Source of the DNA: Oceanobacillus indicireducens
Lineage (GTDB): Bacteria; Bacillota; Bacilli; Bacillales; Amphibacillaceae
Direction of reading: 5' to 3'
Length of the DNA: 64,000 nucleotides
Assembly (NCBI RefSeq): GCF_014647195.1
Contig: NZ_BMOS01000010.1
Span: 30,993 to 94,992 of the forward strand
In this document: piece by piece, positions 32,770-60,456 of the stretch
How the letters are laid out: each line of letters starts with the position of its first letter
Position numbering within the stretch: the first letter of the stretch is position 1
Notes under the pieces: generated by a model
Told to the model about the DNA's origin: nothing
Databases searched by the model: none
The model's input: the letters and a program-made list of their open reading frames with translations, nothing else
Made by a program: the position numbers and the translations under genes

Positions 32770-34125
32770 TTATTTATTCGAGTCTGGGGTCAAATGAAAT
32801 ACCTTTGCACTCCGAATATATTCCACATCGGGAATATTCAACCTAAAGTTAACAAGCCTTGCTGCCACAAAAAAGTAATCCGATAATCGATTTAAATATT
32901 GTAACACTGTAGGTGGGGGAGCATTTTCCTCTTTCATTAATGCTACAATCAGTCGTTCCGCTCGTCTCGCTACAGTTCTTGCAATATGAATTGTTGCGGA
33001 AGCCTTCGAGCCGCCCGGTAATATAAACCGTTCTATTTCCGGGGTTTCTTCTGAATACTTGTCAATCTTTTCTTCCAAATAATTAACCGTTTCCTCTGTT
33101 AATTTATTCTTTCTTTCTTTAACGACACTAGCGATGTCACCGCCACAATCAAAAAGTTCGTGCTGAATTTTCTCTAAGTCATCTATAATATCCGAGAACT
33201 GATCTTTGCTAAGTTCGGTTATCGCCTTGCCTACAAATCCATTTAATTCATCAATCGTTCCATAGGCTTCGACACGGATATCATCCTTAAATACACGTCC
33301 ACCAATTAATGATGTCTTTCCTTTATCACCTGTCCGCGTATAAATCTTCATTTCAAAGTCTTTTGTTTCGTCAGTCGATTGATTTCGTGTTTGCTGATCA
33401 ATTCTTACAATATTTATGCCTAAATCTTTTGCTGCTTCTTGTGCTAATGGGGTAACGATAGTATTTCTCGCAACTTTCAACTCCCCAACCATTCCTTTAT
33501 ATTTCAGTATATCTGCACGGCTCAATAAGTTTTTTGAAAAAACATTTTGCGCAATTGAATCTTTTGAATGGGCTCGTACCACATTTTCCTCGACAGCTTG
33601 ATATAATTCGGTTGCTTTAACAAGCTGAATTCCGAATCTTTCAATGGTCGCTAAATGCGCTGCAGATAGCTCTTTATAGGCAGTGGATGCTATTCCTGCT
33701 TGATCCTGCAAGGATAAATCACTAGCTTCCCTCGCGGCAACTACAGGAATATTGTACATTAGGGCATGGGAGATGAGATTAGTCGTCATATTATCCGTGA
33801 TTCCATTCGCTATCTTTGCCACTGTATTAGCGGTCAACGTGGGCATAATAATAATTGGAACGCCTTCATATAACGGACTCAATCCCATATTTTCACTTTC
33901 GAGATAGATCTCTTCTATATCTAATTCTTTTTTTAAATCATCGATTGAATAAATATATTCTGCACTTATAGACAATGCTACCTTTAGCTTCCAATTAGCC
34001 TGATGCATTTTTTTTAATTGAACGATTGATTCTTTAAAGCCTACAGCTCCGCCCGTAAATACTATAAGAGCTGTCTTCTTCTCTTTATCAACATGGCTGA
34101 CTGTATGGTTAGCTTCCACGTTCAT
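32770..34125 (-). CDS. flavoprotein domain fused to PduO-type cobalamin adenosyltransferase
   Basis: A 451-residue fusion. Residues ~15-170 form a flavoprotein (PF02441-like) domain with IVFTGGAVGFKESI and MPTLTANTVAKIANGITDN. Residues ~215-245 hold a short motif NTIVTPLAQEAAKDLGINI also seen in EutT and PduL here. Residues ~258-451 are a PduO-type ATP:cob(I)alamin adenosyltransferase with YTRTGDKGKTSLIGG, VEAYGTIDELNGFVG and the FILPGG...R-x-x-x-RRAER region. It would reduce and adenosylate cobalamin for ethanolamine ammonia-lyase. It is last in the eut operon and overlaps eutJ by 17 bases. Confidence 0.88.
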   Translation of the reverse strand: MNVEANHTVSHVDKEKKTALIVFTGGAVGFKESIVQLKKMHQANWKLKVALSISAEYIYSIDDLKKELDIEEIYLESENMGLSPLYEGVPIIIMPTLTANTVAKIANGITDNMTTNLISHALMYNIPVVAAREASDLSLQDQAGIASTAYKELSAAHLATIERFGIQLVKATELYQAVEENVVRAHSKDSIAQNVFSKNLLSRADILKYKGMVGELKVARNTIVTPLAQEAAKDLGINIVRIDQQTRNQSTDETKDFEMKIYTRTGDKGKTSLIGGRVFKDDIRVEAYGTIDELNGFVGKAITELSKDQFSDIIDDLEKIQHELFDCGGDIASVVKERKNKLTEETVNYLEEKIDKYSEETPEIERFILPGGSKASATIHIARTVARRAERLIVALMKEENAPPPTVLQYLNRLSDYFFVAARLVNFRLNIPDVEYIRSAKVFHLTPDSNK

Positions 34126-35020: not shown

Positions 35021-35968
35021 TTAATCAACTGGTAATATTTCAATCACTTTCTTCACGTCTTCAGCTGACTGGTTCAGCTGCTTCTGTTCATCAGCTGTTA
35101 ACGGTAATTCAATAACGCTCTCAATTCCGTTTCCTCCAAGAATTGTCGGAACACCGAGGTAAATGTCTTTATAACCATATTCTCCTTCTAAATAAGCAAT
35201 GGATGGCAATATTCGCTTTTTATCCTTCACAATAGTTTCGGCCATTTGTACTAATGAAGCAGCGGGTGCATAATAAGCACTTCCATTTCCGAGCAAGTTG
35301 ACAATTTCTCCCCCACCTTTTCGAGTACGTTCCACAATCGCATCGATTTTTTCTTGGGGTAGTAAATGATCGAGTGGAATGCCTCCTACATTAGAATAGC
35401 GAATTAATGGAACCATGCTGTCTCCATGGCCGCCTAGGACAAACCCGGTAACATCTTCAACCGCTATATTAAGTGCTTCCGCTACGAAGGTGGAAAAACG
35501 TGCTGTGTCAAGAACACCAGATTGACCGATAACGCGATTCTTCGGAAATCCTGTTGTTTTAAAGCAAGTATAAGTCATTGCATCGACCGGATTACTCAAG
35601 ACAAGAATATAACTGTCAGGTGCATAACGGACAATTTCTTTTGATACATCAACCATAATCTTCGCATTGATGTTAACGAGATCGTCGCGACTCATCCCGG
35701 GTTTTCTCGCAATTCCAGCTGTTATAATGACCATATCAGCATCTTTTATATCTTCATAATTGGATGTACCGGTAACCTTTCCGTTAAACGGTTCCACTGG
35801 TCCCGCTTCCAGCATATCGAGCGCTTTTCCTTTTGTCGGATTCTGCTGTTCCGGAATATCAACTAAAACGACATCTCCCATTTCCTTTTGTGCTAATAAA
35901 AAAGCAGTCGTCGTTCCGGTAAAACCAGCTCCAATAACAGCAAACTTTCTTCTTTTAAACATAGACAT
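35021..35968 (-). CDS. mdh: malate dehydrogenase inside the eut operon
   Basis: A 315-residue LDH-like malate dehydrogenase. The NAD fold is [18 protein letters not shown], the substrate-binding Arg loop is [14 protein letters not shown] (typical of malate, not lactate, enzymes), and the catalytic His is in GGHGDSMVP. It oxidises malate to oxaloacetate with NAD+ or the reverse. It resembles the housekeeping Bacillus Mdh strongly, which is usually encoded with citZ and icd. Here it lies between a shell gene and eutJ, in the operon direction. It has no N-terminal targeting helix. Confidence 0.93.
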
Positions 35969-40573: not shown

Positions 40574-41457
40574 CCATTCTCCCTATGTCTTTGGATATTC
40601 AGATTATGTCTGCGAACATAGTCGGTAGCAAGTGGAGTTATAATGCTTGAAGCAGGAATCCGGATATTTTTAACATTTTGTAAAAATACTCTTTGCAGTT
40701 CATTTTCCGTGATTACCTTGTTATTAATTTCGGTAAATTCCGCAGTCTCATGTTTCACTTCATTCGTTGGAATAAATGACCGTATCTGGCTCTTATTTTC
40801 GGGTGCTTGTACAGCTGGTGACTTTTTTATAATTTTTGCTAGTGTACCTTTTTTAAAGCCACAAGCATTCGCCTCGTCAAAGTCAATATGCATATAAGTT
40901 CGATATTTTGGACTAACTCGAATCACTACTTCATCAAAAATGAGTGATCGATCACCAAATATTTTCACTTGAACGATTTCTTTATTTTCTACATGTAGTC
41001 TTTCCGCATCGTCAGGAGATACATGAATATGTCTTTTAGCAACAATTAATCCTTTATCTATCGTTAATTCACGGTCATTATTGATTAACTTGATACCTGG
41101 CGTCCCATCAATATCACCGCTTTCTCTTACAGGTGCCTTGATACCTAGAGATACGGCATCCGTTGATGATACTTCGACTTGTGTTGCCTTTCGTTCAGGA
41201 CCTAGAATAACAACATTTTCCATCCTGCCTTTTGGACCTTCGATGGTTATTCTTTCTTTACATGCAAACTGACCTGGTTGGGACAGTTCTTTCGCCTTTG
41301 TAAGCTGATAGTCCTTTCCAAATAAAGCATCAATGGCTTCCCGGCTCAGGTGGATATGCCTACCCGATGCCTCAACTTCAACAAAAGCCTCTTCCGTCAT
41401 CGCATTTTTAACTGCATTTTTTACCATGTCTACAATAATTTGATCCAAGTGTATCAC
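40570..41457 (-). CDS. pduL: PduL-type phosphotransacetylase with C-terminal extension
   Basis: A 295-residue protein. The N-terminal 20 residues (MIHLDQIIVDMVKNAVKNAM) form a targeting-like helix. Two PduL half-barrels follow with the metal-binding ASGRHIHLS and AKRHIHVS and HIDFDEANACGF. Acetyl-CoA made by EutE would be turned into acetyl phosphate inside the shell, releasing CoA. Beyond ~residue 210 an unusual tail ends IRIPASSIITPLATDYVRRH, similar to the EutQ/EutT N-terminal motif. It replaces the unrelated eutD. Overlaps eutT by four bases. Confidence 0.92.
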   Translation of the reverse strand: MIHLDQIIVDMVKNAVKNAMTEEAFVEVEASGRHIHLSREAIDALFGKDYQLTKAKELSQPGQFACKERITIEGPKGRMENVVILGPERKATQVEVSSTDAVSLGIKAPVRESGDIDGTPGIKLINNDRELTIDKGLIVAKRHIHVSPDDAERLHVENKEIVQVKIFGDRSLIFDEVVIRVSPKYRTYMHIDFDEANACGFKKGTLAKIIKKSPAVQAPENKSQIRSFIPTNEVKHETAEFTEINNKVITENELQRVFLQNVKNIRIPASSIITPLATDYVRRHNLNIQRHRENG

Positions 41458-42242
41458 CCCTCTTTCACTTTATTGTAATCACCAGTTTTATATTTAAACA
41501 TCATGATCAAGCAAACAGAAGACAGTCGATTTAGGGCTAAAATGATATCGTCTCGTTCTGTGCTGCCATCTTCTTTTTTAAAAGCTTGATAAGCTGAAAG
41601 CTCCGTTTCCCTTACGAAGGTACGTATACTATTTAAAACAACTATTCCCTCACCCATACGATAATCGGGAGTAAAATATCCCTCTCCAAAATACTTTTCC
41701 GGCTGATGGGACATTTCCCTGATATCATGTTCATTCATATTAAGCAGGTGAATCTTTCCAAGTTCCTCTTCCATGACCTCAGAGCGGAGTATTTGACGTA
41801 CAAAGCCAATCAGTTCTGATAAATCATCAATCAGTGCCGGATATTTAACGAGTTTCATTTGCCCTTCAATCATTTTTGCCTCCAAAGAGTCCAGCTTACC
41901 ACGCAAAACAATACGTAGATGATCTTTAAACACAAGTAAATCTGAATGAAGAGAAGTCATATATTCGGGCTTTTCATCGATAAAACCACCATGCATTAAT
42001 CGATATTTAAAAGAATCATGATTGTACAAATCAGATACACTGCTTTCATCATTCACCGATGTTTCCTCTTCGTTCGGTTCTTCAGACGAAAGTTCAACAA
42101 ATTCGACAGTTACTTTTTTCTCCTGTAAAAAACTTTTCGCTGAGGGTGTTAATATAGTTCCTTTGGGAAGTTTCAGTACCGATTCTTGTAACTTATCTCT
42201 GTATTGTTGACTTCGTAATGAACTCTCCGTTAACACAGCCAT
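41454..42242 (-). CDS. eutT: corrinoid adenosyltransferase EutT (no Cys metal site)
   Basis: A 262-residue protein of the EutT family. The start contains LPKGTILTPSAKSFLQEKKV, matching the enterobacterial SRLTPSARELLE segment, and the C-terminal half has HLLNMNEHDIREMSHQPEKYF and LALNRLSSVCLIMMF. EutT adenosylates cob(I)alamin for EutBC. The His-x11-Cys-Cys-x2-Cys metal motif of Salmonella EutT is absent; the corresponding stretch SDLYNHDSFKYRLMHGG has no Cys, as reported for Listeria-type EutT. Confidence 0.92.
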   Translation of the reverse strand: MAVLTESSLRSQQYRDKLQESVLKLPKGTILTPSAKSFLQEKKVTVEFVELSSEEPNEEETSVNDESSVSDLYNHDSFKYRLMHGGFIDEKPEYMTSLHSDLLVFKDHLRIVLRGKLDSLEAKMIEGQMKLVKYPALIDDLSELIGFVRQILRSEVMEEELGKIHLLNMNEHDIREMSHQPEKYFGEGYFTPDYRMGEGIVVLNSIRTFVRETELSAYQAFKKEDGSTERDDIILALNRLSSVCLIMMFKYKTGDYNKVKEG

Positions 42243-47787: not shown

Positions 47788-47858
47788 AGCAAAAAAGCTT
47801 AAAGTACAAAAAGGACTACAAAAATCGCAGTCTACTTTATACCTTAAGCTTCTTTGCT
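47788..47858 (-). terminator. attenuator in the eutW-eutA leader
   Basis: On the minus strand GCAAAGAAGCTTAA pairs with TTAAGCTTTTTTGC across an inner hairpin (GACTGC/GTAGTC). The 5' arm is shared with the P2 hairpin, so binding of EutV would prevent the terminator. Confidence 0.75.
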
Positions 47859-47885
47859 TTCGGATAAGCTCATACACCATTGTAT
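47846..47885 (-). promoter_or_regulatory. EutV dual-hairpin RNA target before eutA
   Basis: P1 (47872-47885): stem ATAC/GTAT with hexaloop AATGGT, extended by CT/AG pairs. P2 (47846-47859): stem AAGC/GCTT with hexaloop AAAGAA. Both loops have A at position 1 and G at position 4 as ANTAR proteins require, and P2 fits the published AGCAANGRRGCUY box. P1 starts at the eutW stop codon. Confidence 0.85.
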
Positions 47886-49255
47886 TAGCTCGATTTGAAT
47901 CGGAATGTTATCTCCATTCCTTTATTTCTCTTATTAAATTTTATCGTTCCCATTAATTTATCTTTTACATAATTTTTAACAATCATCAATCCCAAGCAAT
48001 TATTGTTAATTTTATCGATTTTGAAGCCTATTCCATTATCAATAACGGAGACAACGATGTCATCACGATCTTCTTTCAATGATACATGAATCAGGCCCTT
48101 TTTATGATTGGGAAACGCATGATCATAACAATTTTGCACAAGTTCATTGACTATGAGAGATACTGAGGTTGCGACATCACTTAACACAACAGGAGAACTT
48201 TCCGCATCAATGGATAATTCGATGTGATCCAGTACGGAATAACTTCGACGTAAATTATTGATGATAAATTTCAAAACAAGACTTAAATCGACCTCATCTC
48301 CAAGATGCCTTGCTAGAATATCATGTGTTGCTGCGATGGACATAACCTGATTAATGTTATTCGTCAGCACACGTTTGACCTCTTTATTATGGGTCCTTCT
48401 CTTTTCCATTCTCAAGAGCGAAGCCATCGTTTGCAAATTGTTTTTAATTCGGTGATGGGTTTCACGTACAGCCTCTGTTTTTGAAATGATTTCTGCTTCT
48501 TTGTCCTTCAGTTGTGTAATATCCCTAAGTATGATTGCGAAATCAAGTTTATCATCGTCTAGTAATATTCGTTTCAACCGATAATATTTGCCATCAAGTT
48601 GAATTTCTTTTAAAATTTTTTTCTCTTCTCTTAAGATCAAATCACGATAGGGGAGTTGTTTTCCAAATAAATCATTATAATAAAGATCTTCTGATTTATT
48701 ATTTGAAAAAGCGTCCGCTATACTATTTTGAAAGATCAGCTTACCAGATGAATCGAAAAAATAGATTGCGTCTTCGATATAATTATTCACTCGTGCTGTC
48801 ATTGTCATATAGTCTTTTAAATCTTCTTGTTTTGGATGCTCGTCCTCGTTAAATGATTTTTCTAATATATAGGTACCAAGCACACGGTCACCATGATTAA
48901 TCGCATAAATACTTTGGCGAACTAGTTCATTTCCTTGAGTAAATGCTTTATACCCTTTGAGACTCCCGCCATACCTGGAGACTCTCCATACACCAGGCTC
49001 ATTCATTTTCAGAGCGAGTTGACCGACAGGTGACTTTTTATATAACGATTGATTCGAAACAGGTAAAACGTGATATACGACAAGAGACGCCATGCTCCCT
49101 TTAAAAGGAACATCAATAAAAATGTCACAATCAAACAACTCAGCTAGCTCATCTAATGCATGGGCCTTATTGTAAATAATATCTATCTCTTCTTCATTGA
49201 GATCTGTATACATCTTGCACAGATCAATCATTTTTGATTTATCACTCATAGACAA
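47885..49255 (-). CDS. eutW: sensor histidine kinase EutW
   Basis: A 456-residue soluble kinase. Residues ~1-150 form an N-terminal sensor (LFDCDIFIDVPFKGSMASLVVYHVLP), ~155-270 a PAS domain (IEDAIYFFDSSGKLIFQNSIAD) and ~275-455 a HisKA_2/HWE-type core with the phospho-His in ETHHRIKNNLQTMASLLRM and ATPase motifs NELVQNCYDHAF and SVIDNGIGF. EutW autophosphorylates in response to ethanolamine and activates EutV. Overlaps eutV by 14 bases. Confidence 0.95.
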   Translation of the reverse strand: MSMSDKSKMIDLCKMYTDLNEEEIDIIYNKAHALDELAELFDCDIFIDVPFKGSMASLVVYHVLPVSNQSLYKKSPVGQLALKMNEPGVWRVSRYGGSLKGYKAFTQGNELVRQSIYAINHGDRVLGTYILEKSFNEDEHPKQEDLKDYMTMTARVNNYIEDAIYFFDSSGKLIFQNSIADAFSNNKSEDLYYNDLFGKQLPYRDLILREEKKILKEIQLDGKYYRLKRILLDDDKLDFAIILRDITQLKDKEAEIISKTEAVRETHHRIKNNLQTMASLLRMEKRRTHNKEVKRVLTNNINQVMSIAATHDILARHLGDEVDLSLVLKFIINNLRRSYSVLDHIELSIDAESSPVVLSDVATSVSLIVNELVQNCYDHAFPNHKKGLIHVSLKEDRDDIVVSVIDNGIGFKIDKINNNCLGLMIVKNYVKDKLMGTIKFNKRNKGMEITFRFKSS

Positions 49256-49814
49256 TCACGATGGTCCTAGCAATTTCACCAATTGTGGTCCGCCCATCCA
49301 TACTCATTTTACGTAATAGCTTATACGCATCTTGCTCGTCAAGATTTTTCTCTTTCATTAAGAGACCCTTGGCCTTATCGATAAATTTACGATCTTCAAG
49401 TTTTTTAGAAACTTCTTCCACTTGTTGATTCAGAGACTGAATGTCCTTCGCTCTGGATATACACATTTCGACTGTTGGAATAAATGATTTCTCATCAAGC
49501 GGTTTCACCAAATAACCAAGGGCACCAACTTCTTTTGCTTGTTCGACAAATTCCTTGTCATAAAAAGCAGTTAGTAATAATATCCCGCCGGCAATATGAT
49601 CATGCATTATTTTTTTGCTAGCTTTTAATCCATCAAGCATCGGCATTTTTATATCCATGATCACCAAGTCTGGTTTATGTGTCTTGCATTCATTAATTGC
49701 TTCGAATCCGTTTGATGCCTGGCCTACTACATCGTAGCCGGCCTCTTCCAATAATTCTTTTATATCCATTTTTGTAACAGGCTCATCATCGACTATCACA
49801 ATTTTTTTAGCCAT
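49242..49814 (-). CDS. eutV: ANTAR response regulator EutV
   Basis: A 190-residue protein. Receiver domain residues 1-120 with acidic pair Asp9-Asp10, phospho-acceptor Asp54 (LVIMDIKMPMLDG) and YLVKPL; coiled linker ~125-140; C-terminal ANTAR RNA-binding domain (KFIDKAKGLLMKEKNLDEQDAYKLLRKMSMDG). Phosphorylated EutV dimerises and binds dual hairpins to block terminators. Four candidate targets are in this window. Confidence 0.96.
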   Translation of the reverse strand: MAKKIVIVDDEPVTKMDIKELLEEAGYDVVGQASNGFEAINECKTHKPDLVIMDIKMPMLDGLKASKKIMHDHIAGGILLLTAFYDKEFVEQAKEVGALGYLVKPLDEKSFIPTVEMCISRAKDIQSLNQQVEEVSKKLEDRKFIDKAKGLLMKEKNLDEQDAYKLLRKMSMDGRTTIGEIARTIVIVYE

Positions 49815-49916: not shown

Positions 49917-50170
49917 GAGCGTATTCAAAAAAGAGGATGAAAAAGACCGAGGTCGGCTAAGCGCGCAACGTCCTGTACGTCGAATTTCGAGGCGGCGAAA
50001 GCTCCCCGCACTAGAATGTACGTTAGTAGGTACATAAGGAGAGCAAAGACGAGCCAACGAGCTTCCATCGGATGTGGTGAGTTCTACGTTGTCCACAAGA
50101 CGTGGACCGTTTTAGTAGAACCACCTTAATCACGAATTGTCCTTTTCACCAAACTTTTTGAACAACCTCT
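49917..50170 (-). mobile_element. ~250-bp GC-rich inserted element in the eutVW leader
   Basis: A stretch of clearly higher GC than the locus. Its ends are similar inverted sequences: on the minus strand it begins GAGGTTGTTCAAAAAG and on the plus strand GCGTATTCAAAAAAGAGG. It holds no gene with a ribosome binding site. It lies directly after the T run of the eutV leader terminator and before eutV. It looks like a dispersed intergenic repeat of Bacillaceae, which I cannot confirm without a search. Confidence 0.5.
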
Positions 50171-50224
50171 GAAAAAAGACATAAAGGAGCCTTGAAAAAG
50201 TCATAACCCTTTCAAAGCTCCTTT
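50171..50224 (-). terminator. attenuator in the eutV leader
   Basis: On the minus strand AAAGGAGCTTTGAA pairs with TTCAAGGCTCCTTT and is followed by ATGTCTTTTTTC. The 5' arm overlaps P2. Confidence 0.85.
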
Positions 50225-50269
50225 GCTTTAATAAACGCATTTTTTATCAATTTATGCACGTCTTTGTGC
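50214..50269 (-). promoter_or_regulatory. EutV dual-hairpin RNA target before eutV
   Basis: P1 (50256-50269): stem GCAC/GTGC with hexaloop AAAGAC. P2 (50214-50229): stem AAAGC/GCTTT with hexaloop AAAGGA. Both loops keep A1 and G4. P2 contains the AGCAAAGGAGCTT box. P1 would be within a few bases of the transcript 5' end. Confidence 0.85.
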
Positions 50270-50526: not shown

Positions 50527-51663
50527 TTATCGTAAATTAGCTAAAATAGCTACTATATCTTCATTTTTTGGTTGAATTGGGTTCGTATTAGTACAACTAT
50601 CTTGCAAAGCTGATCGCGCAATGTCCACTTTAACAGCTTCAGTGTATTCAATATCGTACCCTTTAAAATCAGCAGGCATACCTAGACCAGATCTTAGCTT
50701 TTCAATAGATTTGATAAGACTTCTTGTTCCAATAGCACTGTTTGTAGCAGGTAATCTAAGCATTTGAGCTAGGTAGGCATACTTATCTGCTGCAGGGTTT
50801 AAATCGGTGTTTAAATATCCTTCCAGACCAGCATTATATAGGATAACCTCCGGCAGCAAAATTGCGTTTAACCGTCCGTGCGGGATATGGAATTTCGCCC
50901 CGCACGCATGTGCAATACTATGATTGATCCCTAAGCCTGCCGCATTAAAGGCAATTCCAGCCATCGTGGAGGCTTGATGCATTTTCTCCCGAGCAATGGC
51001 ATTATTTCCATCATGATAGGCCTCTGGCAAATAATCGAAAATAAGACGGATCGCCTTTTCGGCAAGGGCATCCGAAAATTCATTTGCGTTGGTCGCGACA
51101 TACGCCTCGATAGCATGTGTTAATGCATCCATTCCCGTGTCTGCCGTGATAGTTTTAGGAACAGACTGAACTAGCTCGGTATCTAAAATGGCTTCTTCCG
51201 GCAATAAAGAATCTGCAACAAGTGGATATTTTACACCTTTACTGCTGTCCGTAATAATTGAAAAGGAAGTGACCTCTGACCCTGTGCCACTCGTTGTCGG
51301 AACTGCTATTAAAGGTAATTTTTCATAATTGTATATCTTACTTGCAAACTCTTTCATCGCTTTTGCCGCATCAATCGCGGAGCCCCCGCCTATCGTAACA
51401 ACTAAATCTGGTTTAAAGGCAGCAATTTCTTGTACACCTGCAACAACATTTTCAACCGGAGGATCGGGAACAATATCACTAAAGACTTTCCATTCATTTT
51501 GCCCGACCTTTAAACGACTCTTAATTTCCTCAATTATATTTGATTCAATGATGAATGGATCAGCAACAATAAATACACGCTTATCGTTAAAACTTTTCAA
51601 CCGGTCAAGTGCATTTTTTCCAGAATAAATCACTGTATGCAGTTGAATTTTCTCCATTTTCAT
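50527..51663 (-). CDS. eutG: iron-dependent alcohol dehydrogenase, EutG-type
   Basis: A 378-residue group III (iron) alcohol dehydrogenase: TIGGGSAIDAAKAMKEF and AVPTTSGTGSEVTSFSII bind NAD, DALTHAIEAYV and INHSIAHACGAKFHIPHGRLNAILLP carry the metal ligands. In the eut pathway it reduces acetaldehyde to ethanol and regenerates NAD+ for EutE. It is separated from eutVW by the leader, element and repeat D but has its own EutV-controlled leader, which supports the EutG assignment. No targeting helix is obvious. Confidence 0.88.
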   Translation of the reverse strand: MKMEKIQLHTVIYSGKNALDRLKSFNDKRVFIVADPFIIESNIIEEIKSRLKVGQNEWKVFSDIVPDPPVENVVAGVQEIAAFKPDLVVTIGGGSAIDAAKAMKEFASKIYNYEKLPLIAVPTTSGTGSEVTSFSIITDSSKGVKYPLVADSLLPEEAILDTELVQSVPKTITADTGMDALTHAIEAYVATNANEFSDALAEKAIRLIFDYLPEAYHDGNNAIAREKMHQASTMAGIAFNAAGLGINHSIAHACGAKFHIPHGRLNAILLPEVILYNAGLEGYLNTDLNPAADKYAYLAQMLRLPATNSAIGTRSLIKSIEKLRSGLGMPADFKGYDIEYTEAVKVDIARSALQDSCTNTNPIQPKNEDIVAILANLR

Positions 51664-51725: not shown

Positions 51726-51771
51726 GCAAAGAAGCTCTATAGAAGAAATTTCTTCTATAGAGCTTCTTTGC
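51726..51771 (-). terminator. 46-bp perfect palindrome, attenuator before eutG
   Basis: Twenty-three bases beginning GCAAAGAAGCTCTATAG pair perfectly with their complement, followed on the minus strand by GTCTTTTTT. The first arm contains the P2 hairpin of the EutV target. Confidence 0.93.
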
Positions 51772-51797
51772 CTTTTAAACCTACACGTCGTTGTGTA
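51761..51797 (-). promoter_or_regulatory. EutV dual-hairpin RNA target before eutG
   Basis: P1 (51782-51797): stem TACAC/GTGTA with hexaloop AACGAC. P2 (51761-51772): stem GGC/GCT with hexaloop AAAGAA, part of GGCAAAGAAGCTC. Both loops have A1 and G4. Confidence 0.85.
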
Positions 51798-51802
51798 AAT
51801 TT

Positions 51803-51832
51803 ATTGTACTACTTCATTTGTAATTGTGTCAA
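51803..51832 (-). promoter_or_regulatory. eutG promoter
   Basis: On the minus strand TTGACA (51827-51832), 18-base spacer, TACAAT (51803-51808). The start would fall right before P1. Confidence 0.75.
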
Positions 51833-51983
51833 TCGTTATTATAACACTTCCTTAACCAAGCTTTCATTTCAGTTGATTGAATATTTTCATATACAATCGA
51901 ACCTTCAACAAATACAAATGGTTCGAAACATTTCGATTGATTCACGAGATGAATGAACTGCCAAATTGAGCAGTCATACGATG

Positions 51984-52041
51984 AATAGAGCGCCCTCATC
52001 GCCGCTCTATTAACCATCCAAAGTTACACCATTGTAACTTT
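51984..52041 (-). ncRNA. EutX-like decoy: ANTAR-type hairpins behind the riboswitch terminator
   Basis: P1-like hairpin (52020-52041): 8-bp stem AAAGTTAC/GTAACTTT with hexaloop AATGGT, the same loop as P1 of eutA. Eight bases on, a 9-bp stem AATAGAGCG/CGCTCTATT (51984-52011) encloses ten bases that can close to hexaloop GATGAG, so A1 is not conserved. The pair lies downstream of the riboswitch terminator, where EutX and Rli55 carry their EutV-sequestering element. A 62-codon frame starting at 52017 overlaps it but lacks a ribosome binding site. Confidence 0.6.
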
Positions 52042-52114
52042 AATACAATGCACAAATAAGAGAGTTGGTGTTATAATAGCAGCAAGTCAACTTTATAGTT
52101 TCTAAACACAAAAA

Positions 52115-52143
52115 AACTCTTATCTTCTGTGGGAATAAGAGTT
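52115..52143 (-). terminator. terminator following the cobalamin riboswitch
   Basis: On the minus strand AACTCTTAT, 11-base loop, ATAAGAGTT then a run of T. It is the likely AdoCbl-dependent stop of the riboswitch transcript. Confidence 0.88.
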
Positions 52144-52199
52144 CACAGACTACACCCAATACTAACTCTATTGGATGTTATGTCATGCATCTCCTTTTC

Positions 52200-52350
52200 C
52201 TGGAAGGTTCATGTGCATTTTATTTTGGCAAGTCTCCTGACTTATGGCTGAACCTCACTCTGCCTTCCCAGTAAATCCAGTGGCTTCATAGAGTAAAGAT
52301 ACCATTTACAGTGGCCGGACCGTTCAGGATTTTCACCTGATTCCTTTTTA
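52200..52350 (-). promoter_or_regulatory. adenosylcobalamin (cobalamin) riboswitch
   Basis: On the minus strand the order is GGTGAAAATCCTGAACGG, GGCCACTGTAA, GAAGCCACTGG, TGGGAAGGCAGAG and the B12 box AGCCATAAGTCAGGAGAC (52227-52249). These are the conserved blocks of cobalamin riboswitches. There is no cobalamin gene directly downstream; instead a terminator and ANTAR-type hairpins follow, then eutG. Confidence 0.95.
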
Positions 52351-52563
52351 ATCATATATATAATATATATGAACCAAAATAATACGTATTAATTTATATA
52401 TTAACTATACAACATGTATGTGAAAATGACAAATATTTATTTCTAAAAGTTGTGATTTAATATTTGAAAACCGTGTGAAGTCTGTTGCACTATCACGGAC
52501 TTCACACGGTCATTTTCTAATCACAGTAAGTTGACTTCGCTTAGCTCAATGCGAGCAGTTTTT
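52351..52563. other. AT-rich upstream region of the riboswitch
   Basis: Very AT-rich with ATATAT runs; should contain the riboswitch promoter, but I cannot fix the boxes. A hairpin CCGTGTGAAGTCCGTGATAG/complement near 52470-52515 is the likely terminator of the lipoprotein gene: ACCGTGTGAAGTC pairs with GACTTCACACGGT. Confidence 0.55.
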
Positions 52564-60344: not shown

Positions 60345-60456
60345 TAGCGATGAGCTGATTCGTGTAAGTCGAGGAACAGGTTAAACATGTGATGTGAACA
60401 CATAGTTCTCTCGCCACGAATAATCGTTAGCGCCTATATTTATAGGCGCTTTTTAT
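60345..60456 (+). ncRNA. compact structured RNA with terminator
   Basis: Promoter-like TATACT at 60336-60341 precedes a nested fold: outer stem ATTCGTG/CACGAAT (60358-60421), inner stem CGAGGAAC/GTTCTCTCG with one bulge, apical hairpin ATGTG/CACAT, then a terminator AGCGCCTAT/ATAGGCGCT with T run (60429-60456). No gene lies downstream on this strand. Not one of the RNA families I can identify. Confidence 0.6.

Follow-up and report, generated by a model that had tools for sequence, protein, structure and literature searches.

The eut cluster and its predicted EutV target sites

The window, by which we mean the whole 64-kb stretch of DNA analyzed here, carries a eut cluster at ∼32 to 52 kb. It encodes a PduO-type adenosyltransferase fusion, EutJ, malate dehydrogenase, EutM and acetaldehyde dehydrogenase, as well as EutP, EutS, EutH, a CcmL/EutN-like vertex protein, EutD, EutT and a further shell protein, and finally EutL, EutC, EutB, EutA, a sensor kinase and an ANTAR response regulator, with several of the matches (including EutM, EutP, the vertex protein, EutT and EutG) lying below curated cut-offs. 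The malate dehydrogenase gene (35021-35968, minus strand) is situated within the microcompartment cluster, which also holds two cobalamin adenosyltransferases, one at 32770-34125 (minus; PduO-type with a TIGR02536-like part) and one at 41454-42242 (minus; EutT-like). The regulatory genes and sites of the cluster are the following:

47846-47885, minus strand: predicted EutV site in cis, upstream of eutA (hexaloops AATGGT and AAAGAA), from the hexaloop search
47885-49255, minus strand: EutW-like sensor kinase, from domain matches (GAF_PdtaS, HisKA_2)
49242-49814, minus strand: EutV, response regulator with an ANTAR domain (PF03861, 1.7e-19)
50212-50269, minus strand: predicted EutV site in cis, upstream of eutV (hexaloops AAAGAC and AAAGGA), from the hexaloop search
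50527-51663, minus strand: eutG-like iron-containing alcohol dehydrogenase, EutG-like but below the curated NCBIfam cut-off
51726-51803, minus strand: predicted cis EutV site of eutG (P1 AACGAC, P2 AAAGAA) with an overlapping terminator, from the hexaloop and terminator scans
51803-51832, minus strand: promoter-like site of eutG, TTGACA-18-TACAAT (11 of 12 matches)

The solved structure closest to EutV is 6WSH/6WW6 (1.4e-65), which is EutV of Enterococcus faecalis (PMC8934654). Among the residues whose contact roles are described in that paper, K143, R168, M172 and R175 are kept in the alignment, while N173 is replaced by D and R177 by T. The genome has the EutV/EutW pair together with cis EutV sites, of which three, each with an overlapping terminator, are predicted ahead of eutG, eutV and eutA. 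Two further RNAs were found in the window by Rfam: a Bacillaceae-1 RNA (RF01690, 40.7 bits; 50064-50131, minus), which unexpectedly lies between eutV and its cis site, and a BsrF small RNA (RF01411, 57.8 bits; 60347-60450, plus). Both hits suggest that the DNA comes from a member of the Bacillaceae.

A cobalamin riboswitch, its putative terminator and the hairpins downstream

Upstream of eutG, the minus strand carries a second set of features:

52404-52432, minus strand: promoter-like site of the sigma-A type for the riboswitch RNA, TTGTCA-17-TATAGT (10 of 12 matches)
52210-52393, minus strand: cobalamin riboswitch aptamer, RF00174 (116.9 bits, full model 1-189)
52191-52217, minus strand: P13-like hairpin, with CCTTCC at 52207-52202 and the predicted antiterminator strand AGGAG at 52195-52191, from folding and conservation
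52110-52143, minus strand: putative intrinsic terminator, a 9-bp AU-rich stem and a run of seven T, from sequence reading, RNAfold and the T-run conserved in seven loci
52020-52041, minus strand: putative decoy hairpin 1, 8 bp, hexaloop AATGGT (A1, G4) at 52033-52028, from the hexaloop search
51984-52011, minus strand: putative decoy hairpin 2, 9 bp, loop GATGAG (G1, G4), from sequence reading and folding
51923-51936, minus strand: possible weak extra hexaloop, TCGA-AATGTT-TCGA, 4 bp only

RF00174 is the best family of its clan for the aptamer; RF01482 scores 52.6 bits (cut-off 50), or 43.6 bits with stricter filters, and is not its best Rfam family. The eut-associated RF00174 aptamers of the window and of three related loci (L022, L023 and L024; loci other than the window are referred to by such numbers) are 76 to 84% identical to one another and at most 61% identical to the other three aptamers of the window's genome. 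The promoter-like site ahead of the riboswitch is weak taken alone, since the scan of the window returned 6 sites against 3.8 expected in shuffles; in L022, L023, L024 and L170, too, promoter-like sites precede the riboswitch.

As read from the sequence, the terminator stem consists of the arms 52143-52135 and 52123-52115, and its T-run spans 52116-52110. RNAfold gives it an 11-bp stem, but with a z of -0.57, 47 of 200 shuffles folding equally well. The simple terminator scan of the window did not return it, because its loop exceeds the length that the scan permits. The CCTTCC of the P13-like hairpin is complementary to GGAAGG at 52268-52263, a pairing that we take to be the L5-L13 kissing pair; the labels P13 and kissing loop share this assumption. 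When the RNA was ended before the 3' arm of the terminator, in the manner of cotranscriptional folding, AGGAG paired with CTCTT in the 5' arm of the terminator (52141-52137) at a probability of 0.91 to 0.99, so that folding predicts an antiterminator in the window. The corresponding pairing in six relatives has probabilities of about 0.3 to 0.99, with low values of about 0.3 to 0.55 in four of them (L019, L020, L022 and L023), and the two strands are invariant at most of their positions over the seven loci. A longest-complement test of the antiterminator reached significance in none of the seven RF00174 leaders; L170 gave a positive result (12 bp, reached in 0 of 200 shuffles) and L169 a weakly positive one (0.035).

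Hairpin 1 (AAAGTTAC-AATGGT-GTAACTTT, 52041-52020) is an A1/G4 hexaloop of the EutV type that lies downstream of the riboswitch, with no terminator found at it in the simple scan. Only 7 of 5,000 dinucleotide shuffles of the 276-nt region produced an A1/G4 hexaloop on at least 8 Watson-Crick pairs, and a chance origin is unlikely. Folded alone, the hairpin pairs A1 with U6, leaving an AUGG tetraloop. Within the 64-kb window, the 12-mer TACAATGGTGTA is shared by hairpin 1 and P1 of eutA and has no third copy. Hairpin 2 follows eight bases later, with the arms AATAGAGCG.../...CGCTCTATT (52011-51984); its hexaloop forms only by way of one C-G pair beyond a G.G mismatch, folding extends its stem by a further short helix with CAUC, and on reading the sequence we saw no T-run 3' of it. 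The classical ANTAR dual-hexaloop motif comprises two hexaloops that both carry A1 and G4 (Ramesh 2012, PMC3369931). The two hairpins do not form this motif, loop 2 being GATGAG, and only one canonical hexaloop exists among the strong hairpins of the window; the weak extra hexaloop at 51923-51936 could be a chance product.

A preliminary description of this DNA had proposed a complete cobalamin riboswitch on the minus strand, a terminator at 52115-52143, an 8-bp hairpin with loop AATGGT and, eight bases on, a second 9-bp hairpin whose loop GATGAG lacks A1. The riboswitch is borne out by the full-length RF00174 match, and the coordinates of the other three elements are correct: the terminator has a weak folding energy and a T-run kept in seven loci, the first hairpin is rarely matched in shuffles, and the loop of the second indeed lacks A1 while keeping G4.

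Conservation of the layout and enrichment of A1/G4 hexaloops

EutV proteins of 79 to 81% identity are found in 5 of 27 other species of the genus, and one of 83% in a further genus of the family. The six close loci, four of which (L019, L020, L021 and L023) are almost copies of one another, all carry an RF00174 aptamer (114 to 123 bits), a T-run and A1/G4 hairpins, as the window does. The riboswitch lies upstream of eutG in six of the seven close loci (the window included), and the putative decoys precede eutG in five of the six relatives. In L022, both riboswitch and decoys are found directly upstream of eutV; no eutG was found in this 18-kb locus, although it has the riboswitch and a five-hairpin decoy. 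The regions downstream of the riboswitch differ in sequence among the seven loci, yet A1/G4 hairpins recur in every one.

With a threshold of at least 4 Watson-Crick pairs, the number of hairpins per decoy varies. There are five A1/G4 hairpins in L022, three in L024 and two in L019; L020 has three, its AATGCG loop perhaps arising by chance, whereas L021 and L023 each combine two A1/G4 hairpins (in L023, AATGCA is doubtful) with one G1/G4 hairpin, and the window has one strong and one weak A1/G4 hairpin. The loops of the close relatives are 27 to 34 nt apart, barring a first doubtful hairpin that lies 51 to 54 nt upstream in L020, L021 and L023; those of hairpins 1 and 2 in the window, at 52033 and 52000, are 33 nt apart and keep the same register. 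Two loci with less similar EutV proteins, L169 (68% identity) and L170 (60%), have an RF01482 aptamer followed by their putative decoys and then by eutG, with two hairpins 25 nt apart in L169 and with three A1/G4 hairpins and one G1/G4 hairpin spaced by 117, 38 and 23 nt in L170, the last of which (GGTACAC-AATGGC-GTGTACC) is followed by seven T. As judged from these sequences, the predicted decoy in the relatives is an array of separate hexaloops and not one fixed dual hairpin. The genome of L170 holds a second eut copy, L171, in which the riboswitch, inspected by eye, is cut short and the decoy array is missing, L170 having both; one 4-bp A1/G4 hairpin is all that precedes the eutG site of L171.

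Beyond these loci, none of the seven weaker EutV relatives (L025-L031) has a cobalamin riboswitch at the Rfam threshold in the stretch examined, which was only 3.9 kb for L029. Among eight eut loci of other lineages, RF01482 is the best family in seven (97 to 130 bits), and L171, with its shortened riboswitch, has no Rfam aptamer match. An A1/G4 hairpin of at least 5 Watson-Crick pairs lies downstream in six of the seven RF01482 loci, and L175 has one of 4 bp only. In L172-L174, RF01482 (117 to 119 bits) leads into other reading frames before eutG (137 and 183 aa in L172); by eye, these small frames, which stand in place of the decoy, resemble a lipoprotein and part of a membrane transporter. 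A B12 box was detected in 28 of the 54 sources searched; none was seen in L199, L200, L203 or L205-L208, of which L203 and L206 are shorter than 6 kb. In one genus, probably Streptococcus, 15 of 18 loci have the box, in all 15 cases oriented opposite to eutV, and downstream of it 14 of these 15 loci show an A1/G4 hairpin with 5 or more Watson-Crick pairs.

The strand and loop statistics were obtained for nine decoy regions, a count that leaves out L172-L174, the Streptococcus-type loci and L204. These regions have 24 A1/G4 hairpins in the sense direction against 1 in antisense, with single-locus P values from 0.0175 (window) to less than 1 in 400. Among hexaloop hairpins of at least 5 Watson-Crick pairs, A1/G4 loops make up 20 of 30 in sense versus 0 of 17 in antisense (Fisher, 5e-6), and dropping three near copies leaves six less related loci with 13 of 21 versus 0 of 11 (P = 0.0006). 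In a control set of 29 other cobalamin-riboswitch loci, 5 of 39 hexaloop hairpins are A1/G4 (Fisher, 9e-6 versus the 20 of 30 in sense). With a narrower box pattern, which misses two of the control loci, A1/G4 hairpins occur in 1 of 27, namely three of them in L001. This locus belongs to the window's own genome (contig C18), and its cobalamin riboswitch precedes a reading frame of 451 aa that contains DUF4430; the hexaloop in its terminator hairpin (ACATCTCT-AAAGGT-AGAGATGT) is A1/G4 and may be either a chance product or a second EutV contact.

These figures bear on the simplest explanation of the locus, namely an ordinary cobalamin riboswitch with hairpins downstream of it by chance. The window by itself, with its one strong A1/G4 hairpin, would leave some room for it. 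We nevertheless consider it highly improbable given the rarity of hairpin 1 among shuffles, the recurrence of A1/G4 hairpins in all seven close loci despite differing downstream sequence, the strand bias and the scarcity of A1/G4 loops at control loci. What the computation shows is which elements are present, in what order they stand, how far they are conserved and that A1/G4 loops are enriched.

Loops with G at position 1 are not confined to hairpin 2. Among the cis sites, G1/G4 is found at P1 of eutA in L021 (A1 in L019, L020 and L023) and at P1 of eutG in L169, amounting to 2 of 25 cis-site rows with the L169 decoy row excluded; the search admitted A or G at position 1 and demanded G4, so that other changes are invisible to it. 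The second decoy hairpin is likewise G1/G4 in L189 (GATGAT) and L192 (GAAGAT), and is AACGAT in L190. In the EutV crystal structure described in PMC8934654, G4 is the sole base-specific contact and the backbone contacts reach three closing pairs, and the drift between A and G at position 1 fits such a G4-only base contact; against this, PMC3369931 reports that in E. faecalis binding was lowered when either loop was altered at position 1 or 4.

Hairpin 2 is perhaps a candidate EutV element that helps hairpin 1. Alternatively, it could be a 3'-end or stabilizing hairpin in an RNA that captures EutV through a single hexaloop, a view to which we give serious though somewhat less than balanced credence and which is compatible with the sponge proposed below. 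Its loop without A1, its lengthened stem, and the single C-G closing pair past the mismatch, compared with the three pairs contacted in the structure, fit this view, and a single hexaloop is the minimal EutV target according to PMC8934654. Arguing for a role in EutV binding are the 33-nt distance from loop 1, which is the register of the close relatives' decoys, the retention of G4, the G1/G4 loops at the cis sites and decoys just listed, and the lack of a T-run afterwards.

The predicted EutV sponge and known systems

The minus-strand RNA is, in our assessment, very probably a EutV sponge of the EutX/Rli55 type, the best reading because the layout is common to the six close relatives. The preliminary description had suggested this logic, and the seven of seven close loci, the EutV/EutW pair, the three predicted cis sites and the loop enrichment argue in its favor. 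Weighing against it are the weak energy of the terminator and its absence from the scan, the non-significant complement test, the low antiterminator probabilities in four relatives, the single canonical hexaloop among the window's strong hairpins and the A1/G4 loop in the terminator of L001. We infer the identity of the ligand, the binding of EutV and the action in trans, as well as the direction of switching, the last from the published systems.

In the proposed mechanism, the sponge RNA would be produced from a promoter of its own. Binding of adenosylcobalamin would keep the P13-like hairpin closed, the terminator at 52143-52110 would form, and the resulting RNA of ∼290 nt would not bind EutV. 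When the ligand is absent, AGGAG would pair with CTCTT of the terminator arm and the polymerase would continue into a long RNA, whose A1/G4 hexaloop at 52041-52020, perhaps together with the G1/G4 hairpin at 52011-51984, would capture phosphorylated EutV and withhold it from the leaders of eutG, eutV and eutA. Expression of the eut genes would then require ethanolamine and B12 together.

A different possibility is that the riboswitch controls eutG in cis, by read-through in the absence of ligand. The aptamer ends ∼550 nt upstream of the eutG start on the same strand, and in neither the window nor L023 did the simple scan return a terminator-like site in the stretch from the decoy to the eutG leader. 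The preliminary description had placed the next EutV target and eutG on this strand, as we find (dual hexaloop at 51803-51761, alcohol dehydrogenase at 50527-51663), and had added that a long read-through could join decoy and leader. Such a transcript is possible, but eutG would not need it, since it has its own promoter-like site, with equivalents in L024 (12 of 12) and L023 (10 of 12). Moreover, of the five loci scanned (window, L022, L023, L024 and L170), L022, L024 and L170 do have a terminator-like site after the decoy; L022 keeps riboswitch and decoys with no eutG found in its 18 kb; the sense would be backwards, with eutG made when B12 is absent; and in E. faecalis the riboswitch and the eutG terminator are reported to lie on separate transcripts (PMC5821096). 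We therefore consider cis control of eutG quite unlikely, and as the main function of the RNA we rejected it on the grounds of the separate promoter-like site, the wrong sense and the L022 locus.

To our knowledge, few riboswitch-controlled protein sponges are known. The loci compared here tentatively suggest that EutV sponges are modular, combining, at one position next to the eut genes, either of two aptamer families with tandem decoys of one or two to five hexaloops whose number would tune the capacity, an idea that we find attractive while giving it rather less than full parity with its contrary. RF00174 and RF01482 both belong to Rfam clan CL00101, so that the difference in family may reflect replacement or far divergence. 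If two B12 aptamer families do serve one output, then sensor and decoy can evolve separately. Arrays that naturally contain between one and five hexaloops, in which position 1 varies between A and G while G4 is constant, offer a ready series for the question, raised in PMC8934654, of whether EutV needs one or two hexaloops.

The sponge mechanism itself is established for E. faecalis (PMC5821096, section 9) and Listeria monocytogenes (PMC8079631). EutX of E. faecalis acts by sequestration and has a B12 riboswitch, a ligand-stabilized terminator and EutV hairpins without a terminator, next to eutG (PMC5821096), and counterparts of these features are predicted in the window; EutX carries a dual motif and one extra single hexaloop with G4 (PMC8934654), compared with one strong canonical hexaloop in the window. 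Rli55 of L. monocytogenes is terminated by B12 at ∼200 nt and has a full-length form of ∼450 nt with ANTAR elements, and EutV targets lie ahead of eutV and eutA there (PMC8079631), as is predicted for the window. EutX of the Streptococcus sanguinis type is in reversed orientation (PMC5821096). The Streptococcus-type loci of our own set differ further from the window in their aptamer, which is RF01482 in five of five scanned versus RF00174, and their hexaloops, where two are in the usual places, are ∼62 to 65 nt apart. A literature search of titles and abstract openings, in which subscription journals were thinly covered, returned no EutX from Bacillaceae and none with multiple hexaloops. Relative to the known mechanism, what appears to be new here is the use of an RF00174 aptamer at eut, in contrast to the RF01482 matches at seven eut loci from other lineages, and the putative hexaloop arrays of the relatives.
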